IMG/VR virus record: IMGVR_UViG_3300046000_004843
Coordinates: 1-27,693 of that record
Length of the DNA: 27,693 bases
Direction: 5' to 3' (one strand)
Origin: a virus
Below, piece after piece: positions 5,731 through 20,300 of the stretch (position 1 is its first letter; every line of letters begins with the position of its first letter). Both the position numbers and the translations under genes were made by a program. Under the pieces are notes generated by a model, which did not search any database, was not told the DNA's origin, and saw nothing but the letters and a program-made list of their open reading frames with translations.

Positions 5731-8468
5731 AAACATACGCACTAGACTTTGAGTCCTATTACGATAGCGACTGCTCCATCACAACCCTCGGCCCGAGAGG
5801 TTATTTCTCCCATCCGGCATTCGATGCCTATATGGTTACCGTTGTAGGAGAGGAGGGACAAACCTATGCAGGACACCCCAAGAACTTTAATTGGGATTCA
5901 CTTAGGGGTAACAACGTAGTGATGCACAACGCATCGTTCGACGAATCGCTCTACCTTTACGGGGTTGAACAAGGATGGTATCAGAAGGTAGACTTTAACT
6001 GCTACTGCACGGCAGATATGGTAGCCTTCCTTGGCCTTCCAAGATCACTTAAGAACGCAACCGCTGCTGTCTTCGGGACTGAAATCACGAAGACAACCCG
6101 TGACAATATGAAGGGCAAACAGTGGAGCAACATGACTGATGACTTCAAGAAAGAGGTCACCGAGTATGCCATTAAGGATGCTGAGCTTTGCCTTAAACTG
6201 TGGCAGGAACTGTCGCATCGATGGCCTGAGACCGAACGTAATATCAGTCATGTGAACCGTAAAGTAGGTCAGCGCGGATTGCCTATTGACACCGACCTCT
6301 TGCAGAAGAACCTGAGTCAAATCAAAACAGAACTATTTGAAGCAGAGCAAAGCATCCCGTGGATCGGAGACTACACCCCCCTGTCCCGCAAAGCGTTTAA
6401 TGAGCAATGCCGCAAGCAAGGAATCACGCCACCATCCTCGCTCGCTCAAGATAGCGAAGAGGCCGATGCGTGGTTTGCTGCACATCAACAGGCGTGTCCT
6501 TGGGCGCGTGCTGTTCAAAGCTATCGCCGGATCAACGCCTTCCTCCGCAAGCTTGAAGCTTTCGATGCCGGAACCATGCCCGACGGTCGTTATTACGGTG
6601 GGCTTATGTATTGCGGGGCAAACCCAACGGCTCGTTTCAGCGGTAGCGGGGGTAACCTGAACCTGCAAAATCTACCGAGAGAGGCTATGTTCGGGGTAAA
6701 CTTCCGGCATATGATCAAACCAAAGGATGGATACAAGCTCATCGTAGTTGACCTGTCGCAGATCGAAGTCCGCACCCTCTGCTGGCTCGCCAAAGACACT
6801 AAAGCACTAGACCTGATTCGGGAATCCGATGATATCTACCATGCGTTCGGTGTATTGTTGGGTCTGCATGATCCGGCCAACGGACAACTTAAGGACTACG
6901 ATAAGGCACTACGACACAAGGTGAAGTCAATCGTCTTAGGTTGCGGATACGGGATGGGACCAAACAAGTTCTCCGCATTTGCTAATATGACATTTAGCGA
7001 AGCTGAGGTCGCAGTCAAGACATATCGGGATCACATGTCCACCGTTGTGAAATACTGGCGCGGTCTGGATCAAGATATGGTCATGGCTTATTCGCTGGAG
7101 GAACCCTTTGAACTAGACCTGCCATCTGGTCGCTCCATGCGATATGGCAAGCTGAAGCGCATGAAGGAGGCTGGTGGTATGAACCGCTTCCGGTATATTG
7201 GGAGGCTAGTGCGTAACGGTCAACTCCGCGACTTTGCCCTTTGGGGCGGAGTTTTGGCGGAGAACTGTGTGTCCCATGACTCAGAAGTCCTCACTTATGA
7301 TGCAGGTTGGGTGCGGATAGCAGATGTTAAGCCAGAGCAACTGGTATGGGACGGTATTCAATTTGTAACCCATAGTGGTTTCTTAGACAAAGGGGAGCAA
7401 CCCACCATTGACATATTCGGGATATCTGCGACACCAGACCACCGCTTCCTTGTAGGGGGTCTATGGCTACCAGCAGAAAAAGCTTGCTTACTCCCACTTG
7501 GAGAGGTATCCTCGCCGCCTTATGAAGCACAAGGAGTATACGGGACAGATATTTGGGACATGCACAGTAGTTCAAAGAGCGGGATCTACGAAGAGTTGCA
7601 GCGGAACAGGACACGGAACAAAAGCTCTTTGGGAACTCCAATGTCTTTGTGGCCGCAAAATAATTCGGATATCGAACGAAATCAAAAGGATCAAAACTTG
7701 TGGGCGGGGGTGCCCAATTCTGTCGTCAACCATATCGTCGGCCCGCACGATGCACGGACTATCGAACCACAGACTATTTGCTGTATGGAGATCAATGAAC
7801 GACAGATGCAAACTACCGTCCCACCAAGCATGGGCAAATTACGGGGGGCGTGGGGTCAAAGTATGTCAGAGATGGCAGAAGAGTTTCCAGAATTTTTGGG
7901 ACGACATGAGTCCTACATGGACTCAGGGACTCACACTAGACCGGATCAACAACAACAAGGGGTATCACCCAAAGAACTGCCGATGGGCTACTCGCTCACA
8001 GCAAGCGAGAAACACCCGCAGCTCCAAAATCCCATCGGAGATATTGGATTTAGCAAAATCCAATGGAGTCAAGGGCAGCACTCTTCGCTACCGAATTGCG
8101 AGCGGTTGGCCACAAAAGATAGCGGCTACGGCAAAACCAAACAGCTCAAACAGGTTGGGGACTTGCTCAACTGTGGCCCACGAAACCGCTTCGTGATCCG
8201 AGCGGGTAAGGGTTACCCCGTCCTAGTTGCACATAATTGCGCCCAAGGTTTAGCCCGAGATATTTTCTCAGATATGATGATCCGTGTTGACGCTGCTGGC
8301 TATCCTGTAATTCTGCACGTTCACGACGAGATGGTCTGCGAGGTTCCTGAGGAGCACGCAGAGCAAGCCCTTTCCAATATCCTTGAAATTATGCATACGG
8401 CACCGTCATGGATTCCTGACATTCCTGTTGCCGCTGAAGGACACATTCTTAATCTCTACTCCAAATGA
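5727..8468 (+). CDS. polA-like: Family A DNA polymerase precursor with intein
   Basis: A 913-residue precursor of the phage replicative polymerase. The N-terminal DnaQ-like 3'-5' exonuclease shows LDFE (Asp7, Glu9), HNASFD and EYAIKDAELC. The polymerase domain shows motif A DLSQIEVRTL (Asp342), motif B KVKSIVLGCGYGMG (about 398-411) and motif C HVHDEMVCEVPE (Asp867). Residues 514-837 are an intein (see separate entry); removing them leaves a 589-residue exonuclease-polymerase without a 5'-3' nuclease domain, a normal size for small phage polymerases. The host sequence rejoins as LAEN-CAQGLARDIF, the conserved block before motif C. The start overlaps the P-loop gene stop and the end overlaps the primase start, both as ATGA. 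Confidence 0.93.
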   Translation: MKTYALDFESYYDSDCSITTLGPRGYFSHPAFDAYMVTVVGEEGQTYAGHPKNFNWDSLRGNNVVMHNASFDESLYLYGVEQGWYQKVDFNCYCTADMVAFLGLPRSLKNATAAVFGTEITKTTRDNMKGKQWSNMTDDFKKEVTEYAIKDAELCLKLWQELSHRWPETERNISHVNRKVGQRGLPIDTDLLQKNLSQIKTELFEAEQSIPWIGDYTPLSRKAFNEQCRKQGITPPSSLAQDSEEADAWFAAHQQACPWARAVQSYRRINAFLRKLEAFDAGTMPDGRYYGGLMYCGANPTARFSGSGGNLNLQNLPREAMFGVNFRHMIKPKDGYKLIVVDLSQIEVRTLCWLAKDTKALDLIRESDDIYHAFGVLLGLHDPANGQLKDYDKALRHKVKSIVLGCGYGMGPNKFSAFANMTFSEAEVAVKTYRDHMSTVVKYWRGLDQDMVMAYSLEEPFELDLPSGRSMRYGKLKRMKEAGGMNRFRYIGRLVRNGQLRDFALWGGVLAENCVSHDSEVLTYDAGWVRIADVKPEQLVWDGIQFVTHSGFLDKGEQPTIDIFGISATPDHRFLVGGLWLPAEKACLLPLGEVSSPPYEAQGVYGTDIWDMHSSSKSGIYEELQRNRTRNKSSLGTPMSLWPQNNSDIERNQKDQNLWAGVPNSVVNHIVGPHDARTIEPQTICCMEINERQMQTTVPPSMGKLRGAWGQSMSEMAEEFPEFLGRHESYMDSGTHTRPDQQQQGVSPKELPMGYSLTASEKHPQLQNPIGDIGFSKIQWSQGQHSSLPNCERLATKDSGYGKTKQLKQVGDLLNCGPRNRFVIRAGKGYPVLVAHNCAQGLARDIFSDMMIRVDAAGYPVILHVHDEMVCEVPEEHAEQALSNILEIMHTAPSWIPDIPVAAEGHILNLYSK
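7266..8237 (+). mobile_element. Intein in the DNA polymerase (324 residues)
   Basis: The intein starts at Cys514 in block A (CVSHDSEVLTYDAGWVRI). Block B is SATPDHRFLVGG, with the TxxH motif at 569-572. Block F is VGDLLNCGPRNRFVIR (810-825), and the end is block G VLVAHN followed by Cys838, so Cys1, the B-block His, the penultimate His, the terminal Asn and a Cys+1 nucleophile are all present. Splicing should therefore work; this is inferred from known intein chemistry. The splicing parts amount to about 115 residues (about 514-597 and 808-837). The roughly 210 residues between them have no endonuclease motif in this frame. That DNA instead encodes an HNH endonuclease in the +1 frame. Confidence 0.9.
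7522..8196 (+). CDS. HNH homing endonuclease nested out of frame in the intein
   Basis: A 224-residue protein read +1 relative to the polymerase frame and lying wholly inside the intein. Residues 6-16 (YTGQIFGTCTV) and the Cys cluster W38-x-LQCLCG...TCGRGC (Cys41, 43, 60, 64) match the N-terminal part of phage HNH homing endonucleases. Residues 78-130 (HGLSNHRLFAVWRSMNDRC..YGGRGVKVCQRW..FWDDM) and the HNH core LTLDRINNNKGYHPKNCRWA (Asp140, Asn144, Asn152) are intact. Residues 172-203 (ILDLAKSNGVKGSTLRYRIA) form a helix-turn-helix of the homing-endonuclease type. It presumably cuts intein-free polymerase genes. The ATG at 7522 begins the conserved part; a TTG at 7498 is in frame and the preceding stop is at 7453. 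GGAGAGG (7500-7506) lies 15 bases upstream of the ATG. Confidence 0.9.
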   Translation: MKHKEYTGQIFGTCTVVQRAGSTKSCSGTGHGTKALWELQCLCGRKIIRISNEIKRIKTCGRGCPILSSTISSARTMHGLSNHRLFAVWRSMNDRCKLPSHQAWANYGGRGVKVCQRWQKSFQNFWDDMSPTWTQGLTLDRINNNKGYHPKNCRWATRSQQARNTRSSKIPSEILDLAKSNGVKGSTLRYRIASGWPQKIAATAKPNSSNRLGTCSTVAHETAS

Positions 8469-10624
8469 AATACCGCTACCTCAAAAACAACCGTGCTGTC
8501 GTTACAGCAGCAACTGATGACTTATCAACCCTTACGCATACATGCCCGACATTCGCGAATAAAGCGGAATACCGAGAGTGGTGCGCGAAGGAAACCACAG
8601 ACCATTGCTTCTATTCAATGGCGGAAGGGGACTCCCCAAACGCTAGGATTAGCACAGAGAATCCTGTCAACAAGATCCACGGCTTTGTCGCGGACTTTGA
8701 TGACGTTCCTGTTGATTGGAATACCATCGATCAAGTGCTTAAGATTCGATGCGATGGATCACCAATGCCAACATGGAGGTCCAAAACCCATTCCGGTTTC
8801 ATTCGTCTTGTATGGGAGTTCGACTCACCGCTTCCTATCGCGCCAGATATTGCGCCCGCTTTCCTGAAGCGATTGTGCGATGCCTTGAAGGCTTCGATGA
8901 TTCTAGGCGGCTTTGATAAGACAAGCCTCAAGCCGTCTCAGTACTTTGAGATTGGGACTAATTGGACTAAGATCGGGGATCAAATCCCGATTAACTTTGC
9001 CCGAACAATCCTACTTAAAGCCGCAAACGATACGCCGATCAAAACATCGGATACGAATGTCCCGCTTGATGAGATCGCTGCTGAAGTCTTACGCAAATTC
9101 CCGAACAGATGGAAGAACGACTTTGTAGTTGGGGCAAGGGGTCCGCTGTTCTGGATTGACGACGGCATCGACCGTGACGGCTGTCAGGTTAGGGAAGACG
9201 GTATGATCTGCTATTCTGACCGCGCAGGAAAGGGGTTTGCATCATGGCGTGAAATCCTAGGCAAGAAGTTCCTAGACCAGTTTGAGGAGAAGAAACTCTC
9301 CCACCTTATTAACCAATACTGGTTTAATGGTAAGAACTATTACAAACTCCTTGACGGAGGTCCAGTAGCCATTCCAAAAGACCAGCTTATTCTGGAGCTA
9401 CGGAAGGCTGGTTTCTGCCCTAAGATGAAGAAGAACCAGACGATCACTGAGATTGAGCAGGCTATCCTCTCTATCTCAAATGATTGCCGTGTCGAGGAGG
9501 TCGCACCCGTTGTGTTCTCAAAGGAACGTGTAGTCTGTTTCAATGGACGCAAGATTCTTAATAGCTGTAGGGCTGTGCCAGTCCAACCTGCGGACAATGG
9601 CGACCCAGCCAACTGGCCGTGGATTCACCAGTTTGTAATCCCATTCTTCGCGGATGATGACAATGGCAATTCGACGCTACCTTACTTCCTTGCATGGTAT
9701 CAGCGACTCTATCTAGCTATCCTTAACCATCGGCTCGATCAAGGACAACTGTTTATCTTATTGGGCCCAACAGGGCACGGCAAGACGCTGTTGACCAACA
9801 AGATCATTGGCGCATCAGTCGGCGGGTTTAGTGACGCTTCGGATTACTTGTCGGGCAGAACAAACTTCAACCGCGATCTTTGTGGCTCTGCTGCTTGGGT
9901 TATCGATGACCAAACCGCAGCGGCAACCTATGCAGATCAGCGTAAGTTCGTAGAGCTTACGAAGCGTTGTGTAGCTAATCCACGGCTTGAGTATCACGCT
10001 AAGTATGCTGACGCTATTCCACTTCCGTGGTCCGGTAGGGTTATGATGTCCCTTAACCTCGACGCAAACTCTCTCGCTGCACTGCCATCATTGGACAGTA
10101 GCAACCGAGATAAGATTATTGCGTTGCGTATTAGTGGCGGGCATAAGGTTAAGTTTGGGTCAAACGACTTTGTCGAAAGCACAATCACGACAGAACTCCC
10201 CTACTTCCTTAAGTGGCTTATCGATTGGAAAGCTCCGCTTGAGGTTAAGGACTCAAGCCGCTTCGGGGTCAAAACGTACATTGACTCGTTTATCGAAGCA
10301 GCCGCCTATGACAATAGCTCGCGTTCAGCAATTGCTGAAATGGTGGAGTTCTTCGCTAAGAAGGTCCGCGAGCATATTGACAAACCAAAATGGCGTGGTA
10401 CTCTTACTGAGTTCACCGTCGTCCTGCACGAATCAAACGGCGGTCGCAGCGTAGGCAACAGCAACAACCTTGAGTTTGTGCGTAGGGGCATGACAGTCCT
10501 TGAGGAGGTCAGCAAGCACAACAAAGGTATTCGACCCGTCCGAAGCAGGGGTGACGGTGGTGGTAAGGTATGGGAGATCGATCTGTCTAAGGACTTCGAT
10601 ATCGATAAAGGCGACGACTTCTAA
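8465..10624 (+). CDS. Primase-helicase fusion (AEP-like primase plus SF3/D5-like ATPase)
   Basis: A 719-residue protein that should prime and unwind at the phage fork. The N-terminal part has KIHGFVADFDD (Asp77, Asp79, Asp80), resembling motif I of archaeo-eukaryotic primases, and the later WRSKTHSGFIRLVWEF resembles the His-containing motif of that fold. A middle linker contains a helical segment (LILELRKAGFCPKMKKN). The C-terminal ATPase has Walker A GPTGHGKT (434-441) and a Walker B-like AAWVIDDQ (Asp481, Asp482). It ends with a basic then acidic tail. The domain pair is typical of phage and plasmid primase-helicases. It starts at ATGA with the polymerase stop. Its stop overlaps by four bases the convergent nuclease gene. 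Confidence 0.85.
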   Translation: MKYRYLKNNRAVVTAATDDLSTLTHTCPTFANKAEYREWCAKETTDHCFYSMAEGDSPNARISTENPVNKIHGFVADFDDVPVDWNTIDQVLKIRCDGSPMPTWRSKTHSGFIRLVWEFDSPLPIAPDIAPAFLKRLCDALKASMILGGFDKTSLKPSQYFEIGTNWTKIGDQIPINFARTILLKAANDTPIKTSDTNVPLDEIAAEVLRKFPNRWKNDFVVGARGPLFWIDDGIDRDGCQVREDGMICYSDRAGKGFASWREILGKKFLDQFEEKKLSHLINQYWFNGKNYYKLLDGGPVAIPKDQLILELRKAGFCPKMKKNQTITEIEQAILSISNDCRVEEVAPVVFSKERVVCFNGRKILNSCRAVPVQPADNGDPANWPWIHQFVIPFFADDDNGNSTLPYFLAWYQRLYLAILNHRLDQGQLFILLGPTGHGKTLLTNKIIGASVGGFSDASDYLSGRTNFNRDLCGSAAWVIDDQTAAATYADQRKFVELTKRCVANPRLEYHAKYADAIPLPWSGRVMMSLNLDANSLAALPSLDSSNRDKIIALRISGGHKVKFGSNDFVESTITTELPYFLKWLIDWKAPLEVKDSSRFGVKTYIDSFIEAAAYDNSSRSAIAEMVEFFAKKVREHIDKPKWRGTLTEFTVVLHESNGGRSVGNSNNLEFVRRGMTVLEEVSKHNKGIRPVRSRGDGGGKVWEIDLSKDFDIDKGDDF

Positions 10625-18381: not shown

Positions 18382-18633
18382 TTATGCCTGAACTGGGAGC
18401 GGGGCAATGATCCATTGTTTATTGGTGTCGTCCCAGCGCATTGAGTTACCTAAAGAATACTGCTCTCTGAAATTAGTAATCTCGTTATTTATCAAGAAAG
18501 CTAGTCTTTTTTGATTTTTGAAATCCATAACTTTTTGAAGTTGTTCGTCAGATAATTCAACGTGTGGTTCAGAAACAGGACCATCGACCACTTTAAGGAT
18601 GAGATTTCGCGGGTTTAGTGTCGCACAATTCAT
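18382..18633 (-). CDS. Small hypothetical protein
   Basis: An 83-residue protein. A short beta-like N-terminus (LILKVVDGPVSEPHVELSDE) is followed by a charged helix (EQLQKVMDFKNQKRLAFLIN) and a Trp-containing tail (MRWDDTNKQWIIAPL). The WDDTNKQW element is similar in style to tail-fibre accessory or chaperone proteins, but no family can be named. The start overlaps the sulfotransferase stop as ATGA (18630-18633), and the next gene starts 22 bases after its stop. Confidence 0.45.
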   Translation of the reverse strand: MNCATLNPRNLILKVVDGPVSEPHVELSDEQLQKVMDFKNQKRLAFLINNEITNFREQYSLGNSMRWDDTNKQWIIAPLPVQA

Positions 18634-19430
18634 AGCTCGTTGATCCAGTTAAGTTTTTGATTAAGGGCTTCAGAAATCTGCTTGCCCAATGTTTCGTTCC
18701 AGTCGGGCTTGAGGGGCTTTACAACAGGTTGCACGGCATGGTCACCGAACGGCCAACCAAGCTCATGTTCGACAGTGTATTGCTCGACGTCCATTGGGTT
18801 GTGGGTAAAAGGTTCTTCGCCAAGATACTGCCAAACCTTGTCCATCGTTCCCTGAGGGTCGGAGGTTAGGTCTTCAGCATGAACAAAATGCACCTTGTCT
18901 TTATGCAACCGAACAAGTTCATAGAGACGCTGCACGGCAATCCCAACTGGAGCAGTATCGAGCCAAAACTGGCAGCGTCCTTCGATAGTTTGGATGCGTC
19001 CCGTATCGGATTGGCTACCCTCCATCTGGAATGCCGGATGAGCTTGGAACTTCTTTTCCATGCTGGAGAGAATGCCACGGATGTCACGAACAGGAATGAG
19101 GAGCTTTGCTTGTGGGAAAAGCTGGAACAAAAGATTAGCCGATCCGATCCAACTGCGGCACTTGTCTACCACTACGGGACGGTCGGTGAGGCTGTGGAAG
19201 GATTGAGTGATCCCTCCGCGCATAAAATCATGGAACAGTTGTTCACCCGTTTTCGGATCTGGCAGCGAACGAAATTCTTCTGTTTTGAAAAACGCCTTTG
19301 AGAGATACATGATCTCATGCACTCCGCTGGTAGCGGTGGCGTGAACACGAGGATTCTGAGCGAGTAGGTTTTGCAACAATGTGCTGCAAGCTCTTGGAAG
19401 TCCTGATGTGTAATGGATAGTTTTGTTCAT
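18630..19430 (-). CDS. Sulfotransferase family protein
   Basis: A 266-residue enzyme. The PAPS 5'-phosphosulfate-binding loop is visible as SGLPRACSTLLQNLLAQNP (residues 9-27; the Ser/Thr after the Arg-containing loop is typical). The 3'-phosphate-binding element is PVRDIRGILSSMEKKF (113-128). RPVVVDKCRSW and the FVHAEDLTSDPQGTMDKVWQ block match the usual order and the full length of single-domain sulfotransferases. It should transfer sulfate from PAPS supplied by the host to an unknown acceptor. Its place between an LRR fibre and small tail proteins suggests an acceptor on the virion, on host surface glycans, or on a host metabolite. It is coupled downstream by ATGA and starts three bases after the LRR gene stop. 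Confidence 0.82.
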   Translation of the reverse strand: MNKTIHYTSGLPRACSTLLQNLLAQNPRVHATATSGVHEIMYLSKAFFKTEEFRSLPDPKTGEQLFHDFMRGGITQSFHSLTDRPVVVDKCRSWIGSANLLFQLFPQAKLLIPVRDIRGILSSMEKKFQAHPAFQMEGSQSDTGRIQTIEGRCQFWLDTAPVGIAVQRLYELVRLHKDKVHFVHAEDLTSDPQGTMDKVWQYLGEEPFTHNPMDVEQYTVEHELGWPFGDHAVQPVVKPLKPDWNETLGKQISEALNQKLNWINEL

Positions 19431-19433
19431 AGA

Positions 19434-20300
19434 TCAAGGGATTTTCACAACAGTTACAGCCTTGCCACCGATGGTGTCAGCTCCCGCTATCCATGTGTCC
19501 GCTACTGCGCCTGAGCTTGGGACGTTGATGGTAATAGCCCCGGGATTCCCAAAAAGAAGGTTAGATTGATTTAATATTGTTCTGGTTACAAAACAATTAA
19601 TTGTGCCAAGGTTACAGTTTGAAAACACACCTGTCCCCATACTGGTCACGCCGCTACCAATCGTCACGCTGGTTAAACTGGAGCAGATTTGGAACGCATA
19701 GTTCCCAATACTGGTCACGCTGTTGGGGATTGTCACGTTGTTCAGACCTATGCAGAGTCTGAATGCACCACTACCGATACTGGTTACGCTATTGCCAATT
19801 GTCACGCTGGTCAGACCTGTGCAGTTATTGAATGCTCTGTTCTCGATACTGGTTACGCTGTTGGGGATCGTCACGTTGTTCAGACTGTTGGAATAGGAGA
19901 ACGCATAGGACCCGATACTAGTCACGCTGTTGCCAATCGTCACGCTGGTTAGACCTGTGTTGTAACTGAATGCATTGCTACCGATACTGATAACGCTGTT
20001 CGGGATCGTCACGCTAGTCAGACCTGTGCAGTATCTGAATGCAGCACTCTCGATACTGGTTACACTATTGCCAATTGTCACGCTCTCCAAGCTGGATAAG
20101 TAGAACGCGTAGCTGCCGATGCTGGTAACAATGTTGCTAATGTTAATCCCTCTGATATTACCATCATCTGATTTAAATTCTGAGGGAATAGCCGTAAAAG
20201 TATATATCTCGTCTGGTGGAATAAAATTAAAAACGGTGGTAACTGGATTAGACCCCACAGTCGTCTCTCTAGCAAGTGCATTTCCCAATCCTAAACGCAT
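19434..20300 (-). CDS. BspA-like leucine-rich-repeat virion protein
   Basis: A 288-residue protein. Residues about 51-236 are tandem 23-residue LRR_5 (BspA-like) repeats of the form LTSVTIGNSVTSIGSGAF plus five variable residues. The central motif strictly alternates VTIGNS and VTIPNS along seven consecutive repeats. The N-terminal 50 residues probably attach it to the tail (start MRLGLGNALARETTVGSNPV). The C-terminal 50 residues (AITINVPSSGAVADTWIAGA) form a cap. LRRs of this family mediate protein or surface binding in bacterial adhesins, so it is a good candidate receptor-binding or adhesion fibre; the virion location is inferred from context. The start overlaps the previous stop as ATGA. 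There is no signal peptide. Confidence 0.8.
   Translation of the reverse strand: MRLGLGNALARETTVGSNPVTTVFNFIPPDEIYTFTAIPSEFKSDDGNIRGINISNIVTSIGSYAFYLSSLESVTIGNSVTSIESAAFRYCTGLTSVTIPNSVISIGSNAFSYNTGLTSVTIGNSVTSIGSYAFSYSNSLNNVTIPNSVTSIENRAFNNCTGLTSVTIGNSVTSIGSGAFRLCIGLNNVTIPNSVTSIGNYAFQICSSLTSVTIGSGVTSMGTGVFSNCNLGTINCFVTRTILNQSNLLFGNPGAITINVPSSGAVADTWIAGADTIGGKAVTVVKIP
19593..20150 (-). repeat. 69-bp LRR-coding tandem repeats with a 138-bp higher-order unit
   Basis: Units of 69 bases containing ATACTGGTTACGCT-like and GGGATTGTCACGTT-like blocks (+ strand) recur through the LRR gene. Successive units alternate between two subtypes (VTIGNS and VTIPNS), so the true duplicated unit is 138 bases, indicating amplification of repeat pairs. 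Confidence 0.8.

Follow-up and report, generated by a model that had tools for sequence, protein, structure and literature searches.

A family A DNA polymerase gene in a 27.7-kb virus record (henceforth termed the window, i.e., the whole stretch of DNA analyzed, whose coordinates are used below) contains a mini-intein whose DNA very probably also encodes, out of frame, a separately translated homing endonuclease; we assign this reading a probability of about 0.87. In textbook inteins, the endonuclease is an in-frame domain. Here, the polymerase frame would be translated whole into a precursor in which the two halves of a Hint splicing domain fold together, and excision of residues 1-324 would release a 589-aa polymerase, as suggested by intact catalytic residues and fold. 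The approximately 205 residues between the Hint halves are a tolerated linker on which an open frame is the sole demand, as shown by selection tests across the family. Translation of this DNA in the +1 frame, beginning internally at 7522, would yield a free 224-aa HNH-type endonuclease; its coding nature is evident from selection, and conserved starts with Shine-Dalgarno-like sequences point to internal initiation. The HNH protein most likely cuts intein-free polymerase alleles, the repair of which would copy intein and endonuclease jointly.

Table 1. Coordinates of the polymerase gene, its intein and the overprinted HNH gene in the window.
Feature	Position	Strand	Basis
Family A DNA polymerase precursor, 913 aa	5727..8468	+	Pfam DNA_pol_A E 9.5e-28; phrog_17 E 7e-74
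Exteins, together 589 aa	5727-7265 and 8238-8468	+	
Intein, 324 aa, between ...LAEN and Cys+1 (CAQGLARD), inside conserved polymerase motif	7266..8237	+	
Hint splicing domain, N-terminal half (residues 1-85; Cys1, TPDH block B)	7266..7520	+	pLDDT mostly >85
Shine-Dalgarno-like GAGGT, 14 nt before ATG, weak spacing	7503..7507	+	
Polymerase-frame linker, residues 86-290, without predicted fold	7521..8135	+	pLDDT <50 for 86-289
HNH-type homing endonuclease gene, +1 frame, 224 aa, ATG start	7522..8196	+	phrog_374 / phrog_3377; conserved start and alignment
HNH core LDRINNNKGYHPKNCRWAT, Arg at I-HmuI His position	7936..7992	+	
Hint splicing domain, C-terminal half (blocks F and G, HN end)	8136..8237	+	pLDDT about 85-91; conserved in relatives

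The polymerase ORF runs along its full length without interruption of the reading frame (Table 1). In this frame, the intein begins with Cys1, carries ATPDHRF as block B and VGDLLNCGPRNRFVIR as block F, and ends in VLVAHN, followed by Cys+1; the intein signature (N-terminal Cys/Ser, TxxH block B, C-terminal (H)N, and +1 Cys/Ser/Thr) is present and invariant in 12 relatives. An AlphaFold model built with 12 relatives shows pLDDT values mostly >85 at residues 1-70 and 291-324, and <50 at 86-289. VIA-align matched this model to the splicing domain of the Mtu RecA intein (Z 14.5, rmsd 2.3, 115 residues aligned) and to dozens of further inteins, and a profile search with the intein recovered solved inteins (PI-MtuI, DnaE, and NEQ068 chains). 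The NCBIfam profile intein_Nterm stayed below its cut-off (13.2 versus 24.5 bits), a point against the intein reading; the cut-off is a profile threshold and not a chemical requirement. Across the surveyed loci, both intein ends are recognized by profiles. The intact intein blocks with Cys1, TPDH, HN, and Cys+1 that a first-pass annotation had read from the letters were thus all found, with the Hint fold added by AlphaFold and structural alignment. Its claim that no endonuclease lies between blocks B and F in the polymerase frame agrees with the lack of an endonuclease match to Pfam, PHROG, and NCBIfam and of a predicted fold in this region. In the comparison of intein-bearing with intein-free polymerases that it had proposed, the residue after the EN|C junction is Cys in 55/55 intein-bearing proteins, whereas nearly all intein-free ones have Ile, Leu, or Val. 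The N-terminus of the intein is weakly matched in several proteins, including the window at 7311-7454 (residues 16-63), by phrog_26005 ('unknown function'), which may be an unrecognized intein family. Elsewhere in the window, 18630-19430 and 19434-20300 (- strand) were judged by eye to encode a sulfotransferase-like protein and a BspA-type leucine-rich-repeat protein.

The +1 frame is open at 7456-8196, where the ATG at 7522 gives 224 aa and an alternative TTG at 7498 gives 232 aa. In the suggested database search with both frames, it was the +1 frame that matched HNH families, namely phrog_374 (E 1.3e-48) and phrog_3377 (E 1e-45), along with a weak match to I-HmuI (E 0.036). Pfam and NCBIfam searches with the HNH gave no recognition, and a structure search gave no meaningful match with a model that was too poor (pTM 0.37). 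The protein is full length and keeps all family-invariant residues; the Asn residues of the HNH motif are invariant in its family. The His position of I-HmuI, the best-aligned solved relative, is invariably occupied by Arg in this family (DRxxN), as it is by Arg in free-standing relatives. The first-pass description of an intact +1 HNH endonuclease holds for the ORF and its PHROG matches, while 'intact' is, given this Arg, a presumption.

The overlap of the two open frames is not due to chance. An earlier chance estimate of 2e-5 proved conservative: once the HNH protein sequence and the codon usage of the locus are held constant, an open polymerase frame has a probability of 4.4e-8 for the window, and over 20 loci, which are not independent, the log10 product reaches -100. 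In every +1 case tested, the HNH sequence imposes stops on the third frame, which therefore cannot stay open. L050, the closest free-standing relative, has many stops in the equivalent frame. In this contig, the HNH of the window family (L050:3215-4015) immediately follows a polymerase gene that lacks this intein, possibly a donor-like state.

The arrangement recurs in many genomes. Querying IMG/VR with the entire intein brought up no relatives, since the patterns used lay within the linker, which is not conserved. Using the HNH as query, a first scan gave 20 loci, of which 16 (L002-L016, L021) have the HNH shifted by +1 from the frame of the intein, and a second scan with an HNH profile gave 258 relatives, with overprinting inside a host gene in 79 of the 80 best, all but L050. 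When the splicing domain alone was used, 86 inteins were obtained: 70 have the HNH at +1, 12 are shorter and have no detectable HNH, 4 are unresolved, and none has an in-frame HNH. Bacterial genomes contributed nine more loci, including Alicyclobacillus, Paenibacillus, and Burkholderiales; a search of plasmid DNA gave no match. Named phages with an overprinted HNH comprise Hamiltonella APSE, Shewanella SFCi1, Caulobacter RLK/RW/KcrB/GB2A, Streptococcus Javan, Gardnerella AB1, Vibrio 97.13, and Pseudomonas MR14, and the Salmonella Jerseyvirus / Escherichia Dhillonvirus intein has about 165 matching records, with both frames open in 11/11 analyzed. After identical HNHs were dropped, the count for phage and prophage genomes came to at least 150 different inteins with an overprinted HNH, which lies in +1 in 146, in +2 in 4 (EBPR siphovirus 2, MR14, 97.13, and L055), and in frame in 0; the Jerseyvirus group supplies further +2 cases. 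Double use of DNA in this many inteins makes it a widespread way for inteins to carry a mobility gene. The insertion sites are EN|CxQ (55), L|CEN (27), and others (68), mostly near the polymerase O-helix motif; two overprinted inteins lie in a phage DNA helicase gene (phrog_62; L099:5408-7612 and L109:5643-7649). Four polymerase genes (L049, L051, L055, and L076) each hold two overprinted inteins, inserted at separate sites; the two differ in relative frame in L055 and L076. Polymerase-frame stops in relatives had been named as grounds against the first-pass reading; every insert has a length divisible by three and a host frame without stops. Two compensating sequencing indels are likewise excluded, since an identical +1 offset is seen again in contigs unrelated to one another, as well as in phages in culture and in genomes of bacteria.

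HNH start codons are aligned among relatives. At the insertion sites termed a and a', anti-Shine-Dalgarno pairing at these starts averages -5.6 and -6.3 kcal/mol, respectively, versus -2.8 kcal/mol for internal ATGs (p 2e-12 and 6e-10), and equals or exceeds that of the first ATGs of long ORFs (-4.3 kcal/mol); part of this enrichment may stem from the encoded splicing-domain residues. The corresponding test at site b failed with automatic start choice and is unreliable, as the start that was picked probably differs from the real one. In Gardnerella phage AB1, AAGGAGGT lies 8 nt upstream of an earlier ATG. The 14-nt distance of GAGGT in the window makes initiation there less certain. These data bear on a very unlikely alternative, in which a programmed +1 ribosomal frameshift produces an intein-HNH fusion and no independent endonuclease. 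The HNH does lie on the same message in the +1 frame, and in the window its frame is open for 22 codons upstream of the ATG. At sites a and a', however, the open stretch of the HNH frame extends upstream of the conserved core by a median of only 6 codons, and the HNH stop always lies inside the intein, so that a frameshifted ribosome would never complete the polymerase. This short upstream opening and closure within the intein led us to reject a frameshift fusion, as do the conserved ATG/GTG starts with Shine-Dalgarno sequences and the existence of +2-frame cases.

Selection on the two frames was assessed on 30 independent +1 pairs (70-97% identical), which were pooled. Substitutions that are synonymous in the polymerase frame and change the HNH were rare (HNH frame omega 0.25, p 4e-26), indicating that the HNH is a working protein. 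Those that are HNH-synonymous and change the polymerase-frame linker were as common as doubly synonymous ones (omega 1.08), indicating that the linker amino acids are neutral. Among HNH-synonymous changes, however, those creating a polymerase-frame stop were far too rare (41 observed versus 191 expected, p 7e-37), which shows that this frame has to stay open. The test of conservation in both frames called for at first pass hence returned purifying selection on the HNH and a polymerase frame guarded against stops. The single +2 pair suggests constraint on both frames (0.38 and 0.20, from small numbers). The same data bear on the slightly less probable view that the HNH frame is a decaying remnant and the intein alone is functional. 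Some relatives are indeed mini-inteins without HNH, but the purifying selection just described, together with a window HNH that is complete in its invariant residues, led us to reject a pseudogene.

A natural deletion allele bears on the linker. L180 and L188, from the same metagenome, are 99.4-99.8% identical over two aligned blocks (6.5 kb) and differ (L180:4186-5121 versus L188:4422-4826) by a single 531-bp deletion, in frame, through which most of the HNH is lost and the intein shrinks from 312 to 135 aa; the deletion preserves the polymerase frame and shows a few bases of microhomology. Assembly error aside, this supports a dispensable linker. The first-pass proposal of overprinting, with no in-frame endonuclease and an internal HNH start, is supported by comparative evidence from the 150 cases, selection, starts with Shine-Dalgarno-like sequences, and the deletion allele.

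Still less probable is that the insert is kept in the polymerase as a tolerated loop without splicing. ShiLan-type out-of-frame HNH insertions behave as retained loops according to their authors (PMC11855218), but the ShiLan insert is without splicing motifs, whereas that in the window has Cys1, TxxH, HN, Cys+1, and the Hint fold. The window insert also breaks a conserved polymerase motif (EN|CxQxxARD). Least probable of all is a group I (or other RNA) intron with an HNH ORF and an incidentally open polymerase frame: phage introns often carry HNH ORFs, and the RefSeq entry of Sodalis phage SO-1 labels a homologous insert, the same as the Jerseyvirus polymerase intein, 'type I self-splicing intron', but we reject a group I catalytic RNA core, as Rfam gave no match on window 6900-8600 even at E 1 and none reaching the gathering threshold on the inserts that interrupt the polymerases of SO-1, APSE-1, RLK, and Ent2; complete intein blocks, the Hint fold, and stop-free inserts in multiples of three argue against any intron.

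For the mini-intein with its overprinted endonuclease, similarities of Hint and HNH correlate (0.66; partial r 0.57 after polymerase relatedness), and in some pairs HNH and Hint are ~70% identical while the polymerase flanks at the site share ~33% (30-40%). This covariation fits joint horizontal movement. More broadly, it seems rather probable that in a whole lineage of inteins, residing in DNA polymerase and helicase genes of phages and prophages, the homing endonuclease exists solely as an overprinted out-of-frame gene, with two relative frames and several insertion sites represented, and never as an in-frame domain, such that splicing and mobility share DNA but not protein, and that the lineage was missed because annotation ends at the host ORF. 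In its two frames, one stretch of DNA would thereby specify an enzyme under selection and a linker that the protein can do without, with endonuclease dose and fate uncoupled from splicing. The family accounts for many polymerases labeled 'intein-containing' or 'intron-containing', offers a large collection of natural overlapping genes for the study of cases with one frame neutral at the amino-acid level, and includes cultured phages open to testing (Escherichia Dhillonviruses, Caulobacter RLK/RW, and Salmonella Jerseyviruses).

As a way for inteins to carry a mobility gene, the arrangement is widespread yet almost unnoticed. In open-access full texts, we found no description of the overprinted-HNH intein family; subscription literature lay outside this scope, and priority is uncertain. 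The first-pass statement that no such intein is described is not entirely correct, as APSE-1 P46, a brucellaphage HNH, and the ShiLan-type insertions are precedents. The P45 polymerase / P46 HNH of Hamiltonella phage APSE-1 has an insert of the same family at +1, with P46 an overlapping CDS in RefSeq, and its insertion site (a') is three codons from that of the window. P46 is annotated from L022:2931, while the conserved start is a GTG at L022:2703 (ORF L022:2703-3353); the annotated protein consequently is without the N-terminal zinc-ribbon-like part. A 2015 paper, by its own words, places a brucellaphage terminase HNH out of frame in its host gene and calls it intein-encoded (PMC4422536); the host gene differs from that of the window, and the passages on it include no splicing-domain or two-frame analysis. 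The ShiLan-type out-of-frame HNH insertions in phage methylases, described in 2025, also keep the host frame open, but differ from the window in having no splicing domain, an HNH in the third frame, and a product thought to be retained in the protein (PMC11855218). With its splicing domain, the window insert falls outside this type.

Closest among cultured phages are Salmonella Jerseyviruses (e.g., vB_SenS-Ent2) and Escherichia Dhillonviruses, which like the window have a PolA intein with an overprinted HNH, but in the +2 frame and at a different site. In NC_023608 (L204:2590-3336) and relatives, the intein of the Jerseyvirus polymerase has a full-length HNH ORF in +2; annotation in the Ent2 record is limited to the splicing domains, under the Jerseyvirus label 'intein-containing DNA polymerase precursor'. 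Aligned between Jerseyvirus and Dhillonvirus, the exteins are 68%, the HNH 80%, and the intein in the polymerase frame 70% identical. The Mtu RecA, PI-SceI, PI-PfuI, and DnaB inteins have the Hint fold in common with the window intein, yet unlike it they carry their endonuclease, if any, in frame as part of the intein.
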